A stretch of DNA of 64,000 nucleotides, taken from the NCBI GenBank assembly GCA_947503525.1, contig CANNEA010000003.1, positions 434,001 to 498,000 on the forward strand. Reading direction: 5' to 3'. Shown here piece by piece: positions 21,463 through 29,273 of this stretch. Below the pieces are notes generated by a model, which searched no databases, was not told the DNA's origin, and saw nothing but the letters and a program-made list of their open reading frames with translations. Both the position numbers and the translations under genes were made by a program. Source of the DNA: an uncultured Carboxylicivirga sp. Its GTDB lineage: Bacteria > Bacteroidota > Bacteroidia > Bacteroidales > Marinilabiliaceae. How positions within the stretch are numbered: the first letter of the stretch is position 1; each line of letters starts with the position of its first letter.

Positions 21463-22566
21463 ATGCCTATTTATATGGATCGCCATGATCTGCCCGGAGT
21501 TACCGCCAGTCATGTATTGGAGGCACATCAGCAAGATTTAAAAATACAAGACGAGTATGATTGTAAAGGACTAACCTATTGGTTTGATGAAGAACGGCAG
21601 ACTGCTTTTTGTTTGATTGAAGCGCCGAATATCAAGTCCGTAAAATCAATGCATGAGAATGCGCATGGACTAATTCCACATAAGATTATAGAGGTGGATA
21701 GCAGTATAGTGGAATCTTTCTTAGGAAGAATTAAAGATCCTCAGACACAGCTTAGCAATGAACCTGTTGCTGTTAATGAGCCAGCCTTTAGAGTTATTAT
21801 GGCCAGTAAATTAACTTTTTCCAATGAAGCTTACGAAAATTGGACCACAGAGAACACAAAAACATGTCGTGATAATCATAATGCCATTGTCAGGTCGTTG
21901 ATTGGGCAATTTGAGGGAAGAGTGGCGGGCCATATCGAAAAGACTATACTGTGCTCTTTTCTTACGGTTTCCCAGGCACTGGATTGTGCACTGGAGATTC
22001 GCAAGGCATTCCATAAAGCCACCAATGGAATGGATAAACGTATGTTGATCCAATTCGGTATTAGCGCCGGAAGCCCAATTGCAGATAGCAATGAGTTTTT
22101 TGGTCAGGCTATTAATAAGGCCAAAAGTCTTTGTTACCTGGCAAACAAGGAACAAATACTTTTATCATCATCTATAGGGGAACAATACCGTAAGGATGGT
22201 TTAACTACCATTAAAGGTCATACTGATATCCAGGTCATGAATCACAATGATGAATGTTTTATTGATGATCTGCTTCAAATCATGGATAAATCATGGCAAC
22301 TGGATAATTTTAACCTTAACGATCTTGCACAGCAAATAGGTGTGAGTAAATCGAAGCTATATCGTCAGTTAACTTTAATTTCCGGTAAGTCACCAAACGA
22401 ATTTATTAACGAGTTTCGATTGCTAAAAACCATTGCTCTTATCGATAAACAGGAAAAGAGTATTGCGGAGATTGCCTATGAGTCAGGCTTCAGCAGTCCT
22501 TCTTATTATTCAAAGTGTTTTAAGAAACGATTTGGTATTCTTCCTTCGGCTTATGTCAGAATTTAA
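21463..22566 (+). CDS. DUF4242 / degenerate cyclase-like / AraC fusion regulator
   Basis: 367 residues in three parts. Residues about 1-90 match the small nickel-binding DUF4242 (SCO4226-like) family ('MDRHDLPGVTASHVLEAH', 'GLTYWFDEERQTAFCLIEAP', 'HENAHGLIPHKIIEV'). Residues about 107-265 look like a class III nucleotidyl cyclase fold that lacks clear catalytic metal Asp residues ('IVRSLIGQFEGRVAGHIEKT'). Residues about 285-367 are an AraC-type double helix-turn-helix ('LNDLAQQIGVSKSKLYRQLT', 'IAEIAYESGFSSPSYYSKCF'). Probably a transcriptional regulator that senses a ligand or metal and controls the two genes after it, an inference from the same strand and close spacing. Confidence 0.85.
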   Translation: MPIYMDRHDLPGVTASHVLEAHQQDLKIQDEYDCKGLTYWFDEERQTAFCLIEAPNIKSVKSMHENAHGLIPHKIIEVDSSIVESFLGRIKDPQTQLSNEPVAVNEPAFRVIMASKLTFSNEAYENWTTENTKTCRDNHNAIVRSLIGQFEGRVAGHIEKTILCSFLTVSQALDCALEIRKAFHKATNGMDKRMLIQFGISAGSPIADSNEFFGQAINKAKSLCYLANKEQILLSSSIGEQYRKDGLTTIKGHTDIQVMNHNDECFIDDLLQIMDKSWQLDNFNLNDLAQQIGVSKSKLYRQLTLISGKSPNEFINEFRLLKTIALIDKQEKSIAEIAYESGFSSPSYYSKCFKKRFGILPSAYVRI

Positions 22567-24723: not shown

Positions 24724-25986
24724 TCATGCTTTTAATGAGACAATCAAATAATAGATAATTGCAAAAAGCGATAAAAAGTACAATATGCTAACGATAAAGG
24801 ACTGTAGTTTTAGCAACTTAGATGGTCCGATATTATTCGAGCATGTCGTAATGGTTGTTTTAAAGAGTTTACCTTTTCTGGCTTTTAATGCATAATAGCT
24901 TAGTGCTCCAATCGGGCAGAAAAATCTACAGAAGAATTGGGATACAAACATACTGGCTATTAAAATAAGCGGAAAGATGAACCACTGCACACCATTGCCT
25001 TGAAGCGAAAAAATCATACTAAAGGGCTCATAGGATGATATGGTGGAGTTATTTTTTAATAAGGATACAATGAGAACGGCCCATAACAGTAGGCCATTTA
25101 CATATTGTGTATATCTTCTTAATTGAGGATGTAATCTCCAATTAAGGCCTGTTAGTTTTGATAAAAAATATTGCACGGCAAAAAATGGACATATGGAATA
25201 GCAATAAAAATTACGTTTGAATACGATTATGCCAATACTGATAAAGCCAATAAAAATCCAAAAGAGTAGGCCATTGTTTAAGTCAGGTATTTCACCTAAC
25301 AAGATCCTGGAAAAGAATGCAATGGAAAGCGATGAGTTCCACATAAGTCCTAGAAATACGATACTTAAACTATAAGTAAGAATCTTGAATATCCTCTTTT
25401 TAAGCCAAAAAGTTAGAAGAATTGAAACAATAAAAAATAAGAGAATTCCCCATTCGTAGTCTTCTATTTCAAATGACCGTTCAGTTTTTATAGGTTCCCG
25501 GCTGAATGTATTTTGAGCAAGGTGATGCCCGGCCCGTTGAGCAGCTTTAGCGATTGCTTTGCCCGATATGCTTGCGCCGGATACATTGTCAATGTCATAG
25601 CCATGTTCCAGTGGGGCAGCAACATCTAGGTTTTCATATTGACTGAAAAAGGAATGTTTTTGTAATTTCCGGATGTAAGAGAAGGTTTCTGTATCATGTA
25701 ATATTTCTACATTTTTTATTTTACCATTGGCATCCACAGCTGTCGCCACAATCATGCTTCCTCCATATCCTATGGTTTCATAAGTACTTAAGAATAGTGT
25801 ATCACTTTTACTTTTTAATTGGTAAATGTCATTGTCTGAATAATCGACAGTATAATCTGAGAATTTCTCCTCAATTAGTAATTGTAGATTGGTATTGTTG
25901 AGTCTATTTCCTATAATAAAGGCAGAGAGTAGAGAAACTATGACCAAACTCCAAAGAATGACACTTTGAACATTAGTATTGCTCAT
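24724..25986 (-). CDS. rdhC: RdhC/NosR-like membrane flavoprotein with two CxxxCP motifs
   Basis: 420 residues. One N-terminal membrane segment (about 10-26), then a periplasmic FMN-binding domain with the flavinylation motif SGASISG at about 136-142 (Ser in place of the more usual Thr), then about five or six membrane segments. It has two CxxxCP motifs: 'CYSICP' near 262 and 'CRFFCP' near 351. This is exactly the layout of PceC/RdhC and the N-terminal part of NosR/NapH-like electron-transfer proteins. With rdhA and rdhB upstream on the same strand, it probably passes electrons from the membrane quinol pool to the dehalogenase (inference). A hairpin separates it from rdhB, so expression may be partly uncoupled. 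Confidence 0.85.
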   Translation of the reverse strand: MSNTNVQSVILWSLVIVSLLSAFIIGNRLNNTNLQLLIEEKFSDYTVDYSDNDIYQLKSKSDTLFLSTYETIGYGGSMIVATAVDANGKIKNVEILHDTETFSYIRKLQKHSFFSQYENLDVAAPLEHGYDIDNVSGASISGKAIAKAAQRAGHHLAQNTFSREPIKTERSFEIEDYEWGILLFFIVSILLTFWLKKRIFKILTYSLSIVFLGLMWNSSLSIAFFSRILLGEIPDLNNGLLFWIFIGFISIGIIVFKRNFYCYSICPFFAVQYFLSKLTGLNWRLHPQLRRYTQYVNGLLLWAVLIVSLLKNNSTISSYEPFSMIFSLQGNGVQWFIFPLILIASMFVSQFFCRFFCPIGALSYYALKARKGKLFKTTITTCSNNIGPSKLLKLQSFIVSILYFLSLFAIIYYLIVSLKA

Positions 25987-26069
25987 TTTTTATTCTATTG
26001 CGAAAATGAAATATTAATAATACTTACTGTGCAGATGCTTAAACTAAAAATCGGTAAAAAAGAAAATAT

Positions 26070-26102
26070 GAAAGGATAAGGATTTGAAGTACTTATCCTT
26101 TC
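26070..26102 (-). terminator. Hairpin between rdhB and rdhC-like genes
   Basis: Perfect 11-bp stem GAAAGGATAAG/CTTATCCTTTC (26070-26080, 26092-26102). On the minus strand it is followed by a T-rich stretch (CATATTTTCTTTTTT), so it could be a terminator or attenuator within the rdh locus. Confidence 0.55.
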
Positions 26103-26156
26103 GATATGGCATGATCTTAGCTTTGTAATCCTTATTTAAAGATTACTTTTTGCTCA

Positions 26157-26414
26157 TTACTTAATAAGTAAGCGATAACTTAAAAGAACCAATAATAGTC
26201 CAGGTATACTAAAAAATACAAGTCCCATCGCAGCAGACTGCGGTTCTACTTCAATAGCTGAACTAATTGACCAGGCAAGTCCGAAAAGAAAAAGTAAAAC
26301 TCCAATTGTTCCGGGCACAAATGTTCTCCATGTTGCACCCATTTTTGCCAACTTCAATCCGCCTATAGCCACTAAAGCAGCCAGGCATCCTAATATAAAC
26401 CACATTAATCCCAT
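26157..26414 (-). CDS. rdhB: Reductive dehalogenase anchoring protein
   Basis: 85 residues with three predicted membrane helices (about 3-22, 34-53, 60-82). The segment 'FGLAWSISSAIEVEPQSAAM' followed by 'GLVFFSIPGLLLVL' fits the PceB/RdhB family pattern (W-S, E-x-E-P-x-x-A-x-x-G). RdhB anchors the Tat-exported catalytic subunit to the outer face of the cytoplasmic membrane. It lies 39 nt downstream of the rdhA stop in the canonical AB order, which strengthens a call that would be weak on sequence alone. Confidence 0.82.
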   Translation of the reverse strand: MGLMWFILGCLAALVAIGGLKLAKMGATWRTFVPGTIGVLLFLFGLAWSISSAIEVEPQSAAMGLVFFSIPGLLLVLLSYRLLIK

Positions 26415-26453
26415 GATATATTTTTTAAGGTTTAATTTTAATTTTTGATTGGA

Positions 26454-27986
26454 TTAAAATCCATCGTAACTCTTATTACTGGAATCGAAAAAGCGATCAA
26501 CTGCTTTGGGATCGTCAACATTTCCGTAACCAAAAACACTGTCCATCTCTCTCATAATTCCATGAGCTGCTCCAGGTACAACGGCCCCAATTTTATTGAT
26601 AAGACTATGATGCCAGAAATCCGGTTTATTGTATGGACAGGATGCAATACAATTGACACAATCGACCTTAGCATCTGCCCATTGTTTGAAGCAGGATTTG
26701 GCATCCAGGTACCATTTTTTTACACCTACTGCATTAAAATATGCATTGTCTTTATGTTTATGTGTCGGTTTAAAGGTCGGCTCTTTGTCAAAAGGAATCG
26801 CCTTACTTGGACATGCTTCAGCACATAACTTGCAGTTTTTGCAAAACTCTTCAACCCCGAAGCTTTTTGGTTTATCGTACTCCACAAAATCTAAATCGGT
26901 ATAGACCTTACAAAGTCTTACCCTAGGTCCATATTTATAGGTTACGAGTTGTGAATTTCTAGCACCTTCGCCTAATCCTGCAGCAATGGCATAGGGCACG
27001 CTCATGCCTGTGTCGTTTCCACATGGGATGGCTTTATATCCTAGCCCTCTTATCATAACAGCAACTTGGTGAGCAACCTTAGTCATGCGCGAATACCCTT
27101 CACCTACAACTCCTGATGTAATTTCGTTTGTGGCACAACTCATGGCTTCATAATCCATTTCAGTGGCTATTACGATTACTGTTTTTGGTTTAAAACCTGC
27201 AGTTTTATCAATATCATGTCGCCATTTATCCGGAGTATGCGATTCTAAGGCTAGTTTCATGTTTTCGCCACCTACTTGCATCAAGGTTTGTAACTGTTCA
27301 GGCCCTTGTGGTATAATTCGTCTTGCAATTGGTGGTACATAGTTGAAGTTCTCAGAATAGTCCCAACGCGGATCACGCTTGGTAATCCCAACCAGGTCGG
27401 CACCATATAAACGAGCAGCACGTTTAATTACTTCGGAGGCCTCGGCTTTGCTTTCAAATTCGCACTTTTCTTTTTGTACGTAATTTAAGTCCATTAGTGA
27501 TAATGGAGGCTTATCTGTATTATTATCCCAACTTAACAATCCGAAATCACCTATAGCACCCGGCATGGGACCAGATCCTGTAGCGCTTAAGGCCCAGGCA
27601 CCAGCCATTACTGCTTTTGCTTTTTGGTCCCAACCTTTTTTCCCTTTTTCGTAGTGGTAATTATTATCATGCACAAAGCTGTCGCCTTGTTTTAATGCCT
27701 CCTGATCGACCGTAACACCCATCGCCATTAATTGGCGACCAAAAAAGGCGTGGCCATGTACTGTACTATACGAAGGAATCGATTTATACTCACTACTTAC
27801 CTCATTTGGGAAATCATCAAACTCTTTTACATTGGGTTTTGCTGCCTCCTTTTCTGAATTGTTAGCTTTTACTTTTATAGGAAAAGTTGCCATTCCAGCC
27901 ACTCCTAATGCGGCTGTAACTCCTCCTAATTTTAGAAAATCGCGCCTCTTTAGCATGGCTTCTTTTTCCTTTTTGGGTTTCTTCAT
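26454..27986 (-). CDS. rdhA: Reductive dehalogenase catalytic subunit
   Basis: 510 residues, a typical RdhA length. A twin-arginine signal peptide (RRDFLK at about 14-19, cleavage after 'KVKA') precedes the corrinoid-binding nitroreductase-like core. The C-terminal domain binds two iron-sulfur clusters: CxxCxxCxxxCP ('CKNCKLCAEACP', about 380-391) and C-x10-CxxCxxxCP ('CVNCIASCPYNKP', about 431-449). 'YGADLVGITKRDPRW' and 'DYEAMSCATNEI' are family blocks. The enzyme removes halogen from an organohalide using cobalamin and low-potential electrons outside the cytoplasm, and in respirers serves as terminal reductase. The substrate cannot be predicted. No cobamide synthesis genes are in the window. 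Confidence 0.95.
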   Translation of the reverse strand: MKKPKKEKEAMLKRRDFLKLGGVTAALGVAGMATFPIKVKANNSEKEAAKPNVKEFDDFPNEVSSEYKSIPSYSTVHGHAFFGRQLMAMGVTVDQEALKQGDSFVHDNNYHYEKGKKGWDQKAKAVMAGAWALSATGSGPMPGAIGDFGLLSWDNNTDKPPLSLMDLNYVQKEKCEFESKAEASEVIKRAARLYGADLVGITKRDPRWDYSENFNYVPPIARRIIPQGPEQLQTLMQVGGENMKLALESHTPDKWRHDIDKTAGFKPKTVIVIATEMDYEAMSCATNEITSGVVGEGYSRMTKVAHQVAVMIRGLGYKAIPCGNDTGMSVPYAIAAGLGEGARNSQLVTYKYGPRVRLCKVYTDLDFVEYDKPKSFGVEEFCKNCKLCAEACPSKAIPFDKEPTFKPTHKHKDNAYFNAVGVKKWYLDAKSCFKQWADAKVDCVNCIASCPYNKPDFWHHSLINKIGAVVPGAAHGIMREMDSVFGYGNVDDPKAVDRFFDSSNKSYDGF

Positions 27987-28048
27987 TTTAATAAGTTTTT
28001 GTTAACAGATACCCGAAATAATACTATTGGAGAAAAGAAAGCGTACTG

Positions 28049-28091
28049 ACCAATTAATCCATACCAATTAATTTTTATGCTGTCGTACGAC
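28049..28091. promoter_or_regulatory. Candidate control region of rdhA
   Basis: Direct repeat ACCAATTAAT at 28049-28058 and 28063-28072 (14-bp period) followed by a 10-bp palindrome GTCGTACGAC at 28082-28091, about 60-105 nt upstream of the rdhA start. AraC-family activators often bind direct repeats. No clear TAnnTTTG box is seen between the repeats and rdhA. Confidence 0.4.
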
Positions 28092-28145
28092 TAAATTAGA
28101 CGAACGGATTATGCTTTGATATAGAGGTGATAAGGCTAAATGAAG

Positions 28146-29273
28146 CTAATTAATAGAAGAGCGAAATTGTGAAGGTGTTTGGCCGGTAAACTTTTTAAAT
28201 GAAGTATTAAATGTAGTTTTGGAGTTAAATCCTGAATCAAAAGCTAGGTTTAAATTGGTTTCTTTGCCATTCTCATGTTTACTTGCAAGAAGTTTAAATT
28301 CTTCGATTCGATAGTTATTAATGTAATCGTAGAAATTTTGTTTCAATAAACCATTTAGTACTTCAGAAATGATATGACCAGGAAGATGCATTCTTTCGGT
28401 TAAATCACCTAAAGCAAGATTCGGGTTAAGATAGGGTTTTTCATTTTCCATCCATTGATTCATTTCACGCATATATGCCATAGCGTCTGCACGTGATAGA
28501 CTTGACTTGTCATATTGCAGTAATTTATCCGTCTTAGGTAAATTAGAGTATTTGTAATGAATCACTTTGGGTATCGATATTAGAATAAATATCATTAAAT
28601 AACTCAGAAGAATAAGAAAACCCGTATCCAGATAATCCAACAAGGTAGGTGTGCTGTGTGTGTGAAAATCAATAAAACCTCCAATTATTAGGATTAAGGC
28701 ATATATGTTCATCATTATGCTTAAAACCTTTAATAGAGTTAGGTGCTGATTTGAAAAATCTAAAAGACAATCAATAATGCCTTTATTGGCCCCATATATT
28801 TTTACTAATTCGCGAAAAATAAATTGAGAATATACAATAAAGAGCAAACCACCTATTTCAGCAAAAACAAGACCATACCATCGATTATATTCTTCAACAG
28901 ACCATGGAATATAACCTGGTTTAAAGGTTTCAATTAGCTGTGGTATAAAAAAGATTAAACCAATTAGCATTGGGATGGCATGCAACAACATATTCCGACG
29001 AAAAATAATACTTCCCGAAATTATTGCAGAAGAATAAAACCATAGAAAAGGAGGGGGGGAGGCTTGAAAGAAACGTATAAGATAAATCAGTGTTGAATCC
29101 TCATCAAATATTCCATAGAAATACAAAAGATAATAAATGAACTTAATAAGAATAAGGATGAGGATAGCACCTAGAAATAAATTAACATGATTTCTAAAAC
29201 GCTTTAGGTTTAAGATACCAATTAAAATAAGTATCTGAGCAATGCAGAATATAATGACGTTAGCAAAATCCAT
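28146..29273 (-). CDS. AraC-family regulator with seven-helix membrane domain
   Basis: 375 residues. The first 240 residues hold about seven hydrophobic helices (a 7TM sensor-like domain); the C-terminal 100 residues are an AraC-type DNA-binding domain ('LALGDLTERMHLPGHIISEV', 'NLAFDSGFNSKTTFNTSFKK', 'TGQTPSQFR'). This type is common in Bacteroidota and is thought to sense signals at the membrane. It lies 159 nt upstream of rdhA on the same strand, so it is a good candidate for local control of the dehalogenase, though this is inferred from position only. Confidence 0.88.
   Translation of the reverse strand: MDFANVIIFCIAQILILIGILNLKRFRNHVNLFLGAILILILIKFIYYLLYFYGIFDEDSTLIYLIRFFQASPPPFLWFYSSAIISGSIIFRRNMLLHAIPMLIGLIFFIPQLIETFKPGYIPWSVEEYNRWYGLVFAEIGGLLFIVYSQFIFRELVKIYGANKGIIDCLLDFSNQHLTLLKVLSIMMNIYALILIIGGFIDFHTHSTPTLLDYLDTGFLILLSYLMIFILISIPKVIHYKYSNLPKTDKLLQYDKSSLSRADAMAYMREMNQWMENEKPYLNPNLALGDLTERMHLPGHIISEVLNGLLKQNFYDYINNYRIEEFKLLASKHENGKETNLNLAFDSGFNSKTTFNTSFKKFTGQTPSQFRSSIN

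Follow-up and report, generated by a model that had tools for sequence, protein, structure and literature searches.

Reductive dehalogenase (RDase) genes of the Bacteroidota have been described in a short series of papers. Hybrid RDases were reported in Marinilabiliales in 2019 (PMC6797604), and in 2025 nine Bacteroidota bins together with 112 genomes were reported to carry RDase genes, some of them expressed during tetrachloroethene dechlorination (PMC12090745); the latter paper states that no Bacteroidota isolate had yet been shown to respire organohalides. In 2026, Marinifilum and Ancylomarina were put forward as candidate organohalide respirers, and the RDase of one bin, bin.4, was induced 1.65 x 10^3-fold by 2,6-dibromophenol within 30 min, with a Btr-like regulator encoded upstream (PMC12908670). 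Here, we describe a locus in a 64,000-nucleotide stretch (the window) of the genome of an uncultured Carboxylicivirga sp. The locus is a complete rdhABC set of known kind, in a phylum in which such sets have only recently been recognised, and it is preceded by a gene for an AraC-family regulator. The original prediction, made from the sequence of the window, called such sets rarely characterised in Bacteroidota, a claim that the three papers have partly overtaken. We consider it likely that the four genes are a set for respiratory reductive dehalogenation, working as proposed below. The regulator appears to be lineage-specific and not previously described as such. As far as the accessible text of the open-licence literature goes, preprints excluded, no account was found of rdhA-adjacent, membrane-embedded AraCs forming a clade, of the operator-like element described below or of RdhB-RdhC fusions.

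The clusters of Marinifilum and other Marinifilaceae (bin.4, PMC12908670; loci L036-L039 and L041-L043 of our set) have the gene order of the window, an AraC-family gene upstream, and RdhAs 50-53% identical to the window protein. Unlike the window, they have an operator-like element and a threonine at the flavin site of RdhC. The accessible text of the bin.4 paper calls the regulator Btr-like and does not describe membrane helices, a regulator clade or an operator (PMC12908670). The bin.4 primers (734F and 864R) encode DWSDFP and AGYSAM; they fit the gene of an uncultured Carboxylicivirga with one and four mismatches, and the resulting amplicon of 131 bp agrees with the names of the primers. 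Judged from the primers alone, the induced bin.4 gene would fall in the group that is sister to the window gene. The NCBIfam model for Btr, which we take to be an AraC-family protein, matches, below its cut-off, another AraC protein of the window.

The PceABC(T) system of Desulfitobacterium hafniense and Dehalobacter shares with the window the RdhA, RdhB and RdhC families, twin-arginine translocation (Tat) export, the catalytic Tyr and Arg, K, H, D and Y of the quinol site, and the fold. It has a transposon-borne constitutive promoter, whereas the window has an adjoining araC gene; four of the five mapped cobalamin-contact residues differ; and no PceT-like trigger-factor domain is present in the nine window proteins scanned against Pfam, the other window proteins not having been scanned. 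The Desulfoluna spongiiphila clusters (PMC7031245; L062) are also marine rdhABC sets, with an RdhA about 39% identical to the window protein, but in the published account they are associated with sigma-54, LuxR or MarR regulators and with de novo corrinoid synthesis. The transmembrane (TM)-hybrid RDases (PMC6797604) are from the same phylum, and the window genome encodes one of them; unlike the window RdhA, they have no Tat signal and no rdhB, carry N-terminal helices and occupy a separate tree branch.

The four genes (Table 1) are intact, codirectional open reading frames (ORFs) in the transcription order araC-rdhA-rdhB-rdhC, all on the minus strand, at the positions and with the 39-nt gap between rdhA and the downstream rdhB that had been predicted. 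They would probably be co-transcribed. The contig that contains the window is 1.01 Mb long; the genome comprises 6.56 Mb in 39 contigs and is rated 100% complete. The locus was compared with 36 related loci from one scan of genome contigs; loci are numbered with an L and genomes with a G.

Table 1. Features of the araC-rdhABC locus, with positions in the window.
Feature	Positions	Strand	Basis or remark
AraC-family regulator	28146-29273	minus	PF12833, hydropathy, clade of rdh-linked AraCs
araC-rdhA intergenic region	27987-28145	minus	operator-like element here in 12 relatives, not in window
rdhA, 510 aa, exported-type reductive dehalogenase catalytic subunit	26454-27986	minus	Tat signal RRDFLK, two [4Fe-4S] motifs
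rdhB, 85 aa, three-helix membrane anchor, ExE motif (EVE at 55)	26157-26414	minus	PceB profile match, hydropathy
rdhC-like, 420 aa, FMN-binding domain and membrane part with two CxxxCP motifs	24724-25986	minus	PF04205, PF12801

RdhA scores 207.3 bits with the NCBIfam model TIGR02486 'reductive dehalogenase', the cut-off being 160.35. The Tat motif, of the form RRxFxK, is at residue 14, and the first cluster motif (CxxCxxCxxxCP) reads CKNCKLCAEACP at residue 382. The second (CxxCxxxCP) involves C432, then C443, C446, C450 and P451, all invariant in 19 aligned rows. The catalytic Tyr and Arg of PceA are present as Y298 and R357, and residues K489, H495, D515 and Y520 of the menaquinol site of D. 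hafniense PceA (DhPceA) correspond to K454, H460, D482 and Y487, with R499 replaced by K465. The predicted RdhA model has the fold of solved RdhAs in a VIA-align structural comparison, a match that adds confirmation of the RdhA assignment only. The assignment would have fallen had the protein been epoxyqueuosine reductase QueG or another corrinoid iron-sulphur enzyme outside the RdhA clade. That identity was rejected, and we give it virtually no credence: the protein scores 36.5 bits with TIGR00276 (cut-off 200), and the RdhA tree and the fold comparison refute it as well. The evidence supports an RdhA of the Tat/RdhB type, in keeping with the original prediction. The tree left out five RdhA pieces of less than 380 aa and matches that had no locus. 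Within it, L022, one of six rows tagged by length as QueG-like, groups with the TM-hybrids and is a cut TM-hybrid.

RdhB has three hydrophobic segments in a hydropathy scan. Pfam and NCBIfam scans of the single sequence gave no match; the sole PDB match of a 20-row profile (the window and 19 relatives) is the PceB anchor, 8q4h_C (E 6.2e-11), which together with the three segments bears out the predicted RdhB-like anchor. The protein encoded by the last gene has FMN_bind (PF04205) and Fer4_5 (PF12801) domains, both above Pfam cut-offs. As in the PceC family, the two CxxxCP motifs are accompanied by about six hydrophobic segments. In 117 published RdhCs, the flavin mononucleotide (FMN) motif is [S/T]G[A/S]TX[S/T], with a fully conserved Thr (PMC5928378). 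The acceptor position in the window protein is Ser139 (SGASIS). Among RdhCs of at least 250 aa from the related loci, this column holds Thr in all 30 aligned relatives and Ser in the window alone; since the conserved acceptor is replaced, we name the protein RdhC-like. ApbE accepts Ser as a flavin site in other substrate proteins (PMC8238504). The description of a flavinylated membrane protein with two CxxxCP motifs therefore holds for the motifs, flavinylation being a prediction, with Ser in place of Thr.

In four relatives with deltaproteobacterial-type loci, RdhC begins with a fused RdhB-like domain of three helices (L060:4957-6456, L061:8499-10025, L068:7754-9451 and L070:6717-8249), with a separate rdhB beside each. 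The fused domain matches at E 4e-21 to 1e-26, and at 3e-17 to 2e-23 when four deltaproteobacterial rows are left out of the profile (E-values for this ORF set). Because of these fusions, we suggest that RdhC docks on the RdhA complex. In a metagenome-assembled genome (MAG), RdhB is instead fused to an RdhA with an internal RR motif (L059:3015-4718); a similar RdhA-RdhB fusion in L066 was rejected, the reading frame passing through a stretch of N.

The original prediction made RdhC an obligatory bridge, with quinol electrons passing through its membrane part and FMN to RdhA, a role that has been suggested for both PceC and Desulfoluna RdhC1 (PMC5928378, PMC7031245). The presence of RdhC at 29 of the 36 related loci by clustering, or 30 by BLAST, fits a bridge, as do the fusions. 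On the other hand, the D. hafniense PceA2B2 structure has menaquinone bound without PceC (PMC10624902), and PceA outnumbers PceC about 50-fold (PMC8905343). The window RdhA retains K, H, D and Y of the quinol site, with K in place of R, and the flavin acceptor of the window RdhC-like protein is Ser. The bridge is therefore not established, and we think it unlikely. In our reading, RdhAB would be a quinol-driven enzyme and RdhC a sub-stoichiometric redox helper.

The regulator has a C-terminal AraC-type helix-turn-helix domain (PF12833, 45.6 bits) and six N-terminal membrane segments by a crude hydropathy scan. The protein had been predicted as a 7TM-AraC; it is a membrane-embedded AraC with six segments in the scan, a seventh being possible. 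An AraC-family gene is among 63 homolog families exclusive to organohalide-respiring Sulfurospirillum (PMC8865925). Homologs of the window regulator are encoded at 16 of the 36 related loci. In 14 of these the gene immediately precedes rdhA on the same strand; in L046 the two genes diverge, and in L047 one ORF separates them. No homolog was seen in the available DNA of the deltaproteobacterial, Sansalvadorimonas or flavobacterial MAG loci other than L044. An AraC tree was made from the window protein, the 16 linked and 23 unlinked AraCs, the latter being 20 of the best-scoring matches from a 393-genome sample of the order and three from the window genome, with 1.5 kb flanks, so that a distant rdhA would be missed. 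All 17 linked rows lie on one side of a branch with an SH-aLRT of 99, 12 of them having been in the search profile used for the background AraCs; left out were L110, for an internal stop, and L088 and L089, which repeat the genes of L071 and of the window. In the sampled order, two AraCs exceed 450 bits with the linked profile, those of the window and G342, both of which are in the profile; the next scores 183.5. The distances of RdhA, AraC and RdhC correlate across 11 loci. Elsewhere in the window (21463-22566, plus strand), a further AraC protein carries a SCO4226-like domain (nickel-responsive) at its N-terminus; genes for a BBE-type FAD oxidase and a cupin protein come next.

When 12 upstream regions (the window and 11 relatives) were searched de novo for motifs, one scored above shuffled controls: 225 against at most 168.6 at width 18, and 349.7 against at most 237.7 at width 40, with six block shuffles per width run at half the restarts. 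The element is found in 12 of the 16 AraC-linked loci, namely those of seven Marinifilum, Labilibacter, the Lutibacter MAG, the uncultured Carboxylicivirga, the Bacteroidales Zod MAG and JC017. An ACGTCC-type anchor lies 76-84 nt before the rdhA start codon in 11 relatives, and L038 scores at the distance of its sisters. Leave-one-out scores with a position weight matrix (PWM) are 14.5-36.0 for the seven distinct sites in relatives; the highest score elsewhere in the relatives' own 10-15 kb loci is 8.4, and the best-scoring site in all 64 kb of the window (10.5) lies at 59.9 kb, a long way from rdhA. None of the 23 rdhA upstream regions in loci without a linked AraC exceeds 0.2, and L049 and L050, clade members with no AraC in the available DNA, score -2.0 and -4.6. 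The best of 15 regions upstream of araC scores 9.9, in the shared divergent region of L046, where the element is thus no better than background; otherwise the maximum is 2.2. In six whole genomes, matches to a derived pattern with no mismatch occur before rdhA in G011, G049 and G342 only, which holds by construction, the pattern having been derived from these sites; six other matches have three mismatches, none has fewer, and a reversed control pattern gives two matches.

The element contains two imperfect repeats 20-21 bp apart, clear in some loci only. At 21 bp, L048 alone has a conspicuous repeat (13 of 14 positions, with none of 200 shuffles as good); in L036, L040, L042 and L043, 9-10 of 14 positions agree at an offset of 20, without a shuffle comparison. 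AraC proteins often bind such repeats, and we interpret the element as a putative AraC-type operator. The window has no such shared operator (PWM -1.3), and neither have L047 (-1.1), L051 (-0.9) and L052 (5.5), all within background; the best 21-bp-spaced repeats of the window upstream region are matched by 81.5% of 200 shuffles. Control of the locus by the AraC protein, as originally predicted, is therefore supported in part, by the co-conservation, the single clade and the element in relatives, but not by an operator in the window itself.

The genome encodes TatC, MenD and two ApbE genes, one as two pieces of one frame. Three cobalamin riboswitches lie upstream of btuC-like, ATPase, cobA-like and btuF-like genes, followed by cobT-cobS-cobC-cobU, and a TonB receptor gene is also present; cobC and the ATPase were named by eye. 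NCBIfam cut-offs are passed by CbiP, CbiB, CobT, CobS and CobU, and the matches to BtuC, BtuF, the TonB B12 receptor, CobA and CobD are below them. De novo corrinoid synthesis was set aside: CbiC, its sole marker tested, was not found in the genome (the control is positive in 7 of 14 known genomes), and other ring-synthesis genes were not searched genome-wide. Salvage, by uptake and late synthesis, is the likely supply. The absence of any corrinoid supply, which would have undone the prediction, was not observed. Two CobT-like genes are present in separate cobamide clusters (L072:544-1608, named by eye from its start, and L032:7508-8545).

Several observations weigh against a respiratory locus, beside Ser139, the operator scores and the missing CbiC. 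In RdhA, the quinol-pocket positions S486, W487, A498 and A511 of DhPceA differ, only one of the five mapped cobalamin contacts (K399) is kept, and model residues 456-472, equivalent to the quinol-site helices, have a pLDDT below 50. The RdhA tree gives no clean split of respiratory from other RdhAs: S. multivorans PceA, whose long branch was flagged, groups (92) with the hybrid proteins and those like NpRdhA. The end branch of the window RdhA is itself long (0.59), and the protein departs at 29 positions otherwise invariant in eight relatives, each of which departs at 2-7. The bin.4 primers misfit the window rdhA, with eight and six mismatches. The long branch, the 29 departures, the Thr-to-Ser change and the missing operator would all be expected if the locus were drifting or silenced in this strain, with a non-functional enzyme or control. 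We hold this very improbable, for all four reading frames are intact, and RdhA retains the cysteines of its clusters, Y298, R357 and the main quinol-site residues. The window AraC has diverged too, and the operator may therefore have moved with its regulator.

The locus is patchily distributed. An RdhA of the window kind is present in 4 of 14 same-genus genomes (G000, G011, G014 and G017); the G017 copy is a 118-aa piece at a contig edge whose nearest relatives are flavobacterial (47%), and the G014 RdhA is identical, over the tree columns, to that of Carboxylicivirga sediminis JR1 (L051). Five of the 393 genomes of the order sample match at E 1e-60, including the window's own and one with an internal stop. 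Fe_hyd_lg_C has six matches above cut-off in the genome, and other electron outlets are therefore likely. Patchiness and alternative outlets would suit an exported, active enzyme serving detoxification or as a redox sink, with no energy conservation and growth independent of RdhA. Against it stand the full rdhABC set with its anchor and the kept quinol-site residues, and we judge it rather improbable.

All three architectural kinds of RdhA seem to be represented in the window genome. One further RdhA-like protein (L002:1495-2844, minus strand), of 449 aa and with no Tat signal, has two N-terminal hydrophobic segments and groups with same-genus TM-hybrids. Another, of 406 aa and also without Tat (L003:991-2211, plus strand), pairs with NpRdhA (99, both being long branches); an AraC gene, an amidohydrolase gene and a MarR gene are nearby. 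In L053-L057 (flavobacterial and Fulvivirga), a gene of 357-363 aa, shared by all five loci, directly follows an rdhA; a second rdhA accompanies it in four of the five, and a 611-637 aa gene lies downstream in four. In the uncultured Lutibacter MAG, RdhA is in two open pieces (L044:6992-8485), possibly through a sequencing error.

For the respiratory set that we favour, we propose the following mechanism. RdhA would fold with a corrinoid and two [4Fe-4S] clusters before export by Tat, and RdhB would hold it on the outer face of the inner membrane. Menaquinol would be oxidised at the RdhA-RdhB interface, electrons passing via the clusters to cobalt, which would remove the halide; the substrate is most likely a brominated phenol or similar marine organohalide. 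RdhC would be an extracytoplasmic flavoprotein docking on the complex, providing activation or supplementary electrons as a redox helper and not as an obligatory bridge. The membrane-embedded AraC would sense the substrate or its effect and turn on rdhABC. Taking the loci together, we put forward tentatively, as a possibility that falls somewhat short of probable, that marine Bacteroidota evolved a dedicated membrane AraC that senses organohalides and has rdhABC as its single target through a two-repeat operator (20-21 bp), that the window regulator and its operator diverged together, and that RdhC in related loci carries an RdhB-like docking domain. If so, this domain would make RdhC a genuine partner of the RdhA complex.

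Publications on organohalide respiration in Bacteroidota are just beginning to appear, and a complete set with its own regulator is a concrete candidate for this process. Isolates, among them strains of Marinifilum, also carry the gene set. How these bacteria may sense halogenated compounds, and whether RdhC acts on the RdhA-RdhB complex, become directly testable through the operator-like element and the RdhB-RdhC fusions.

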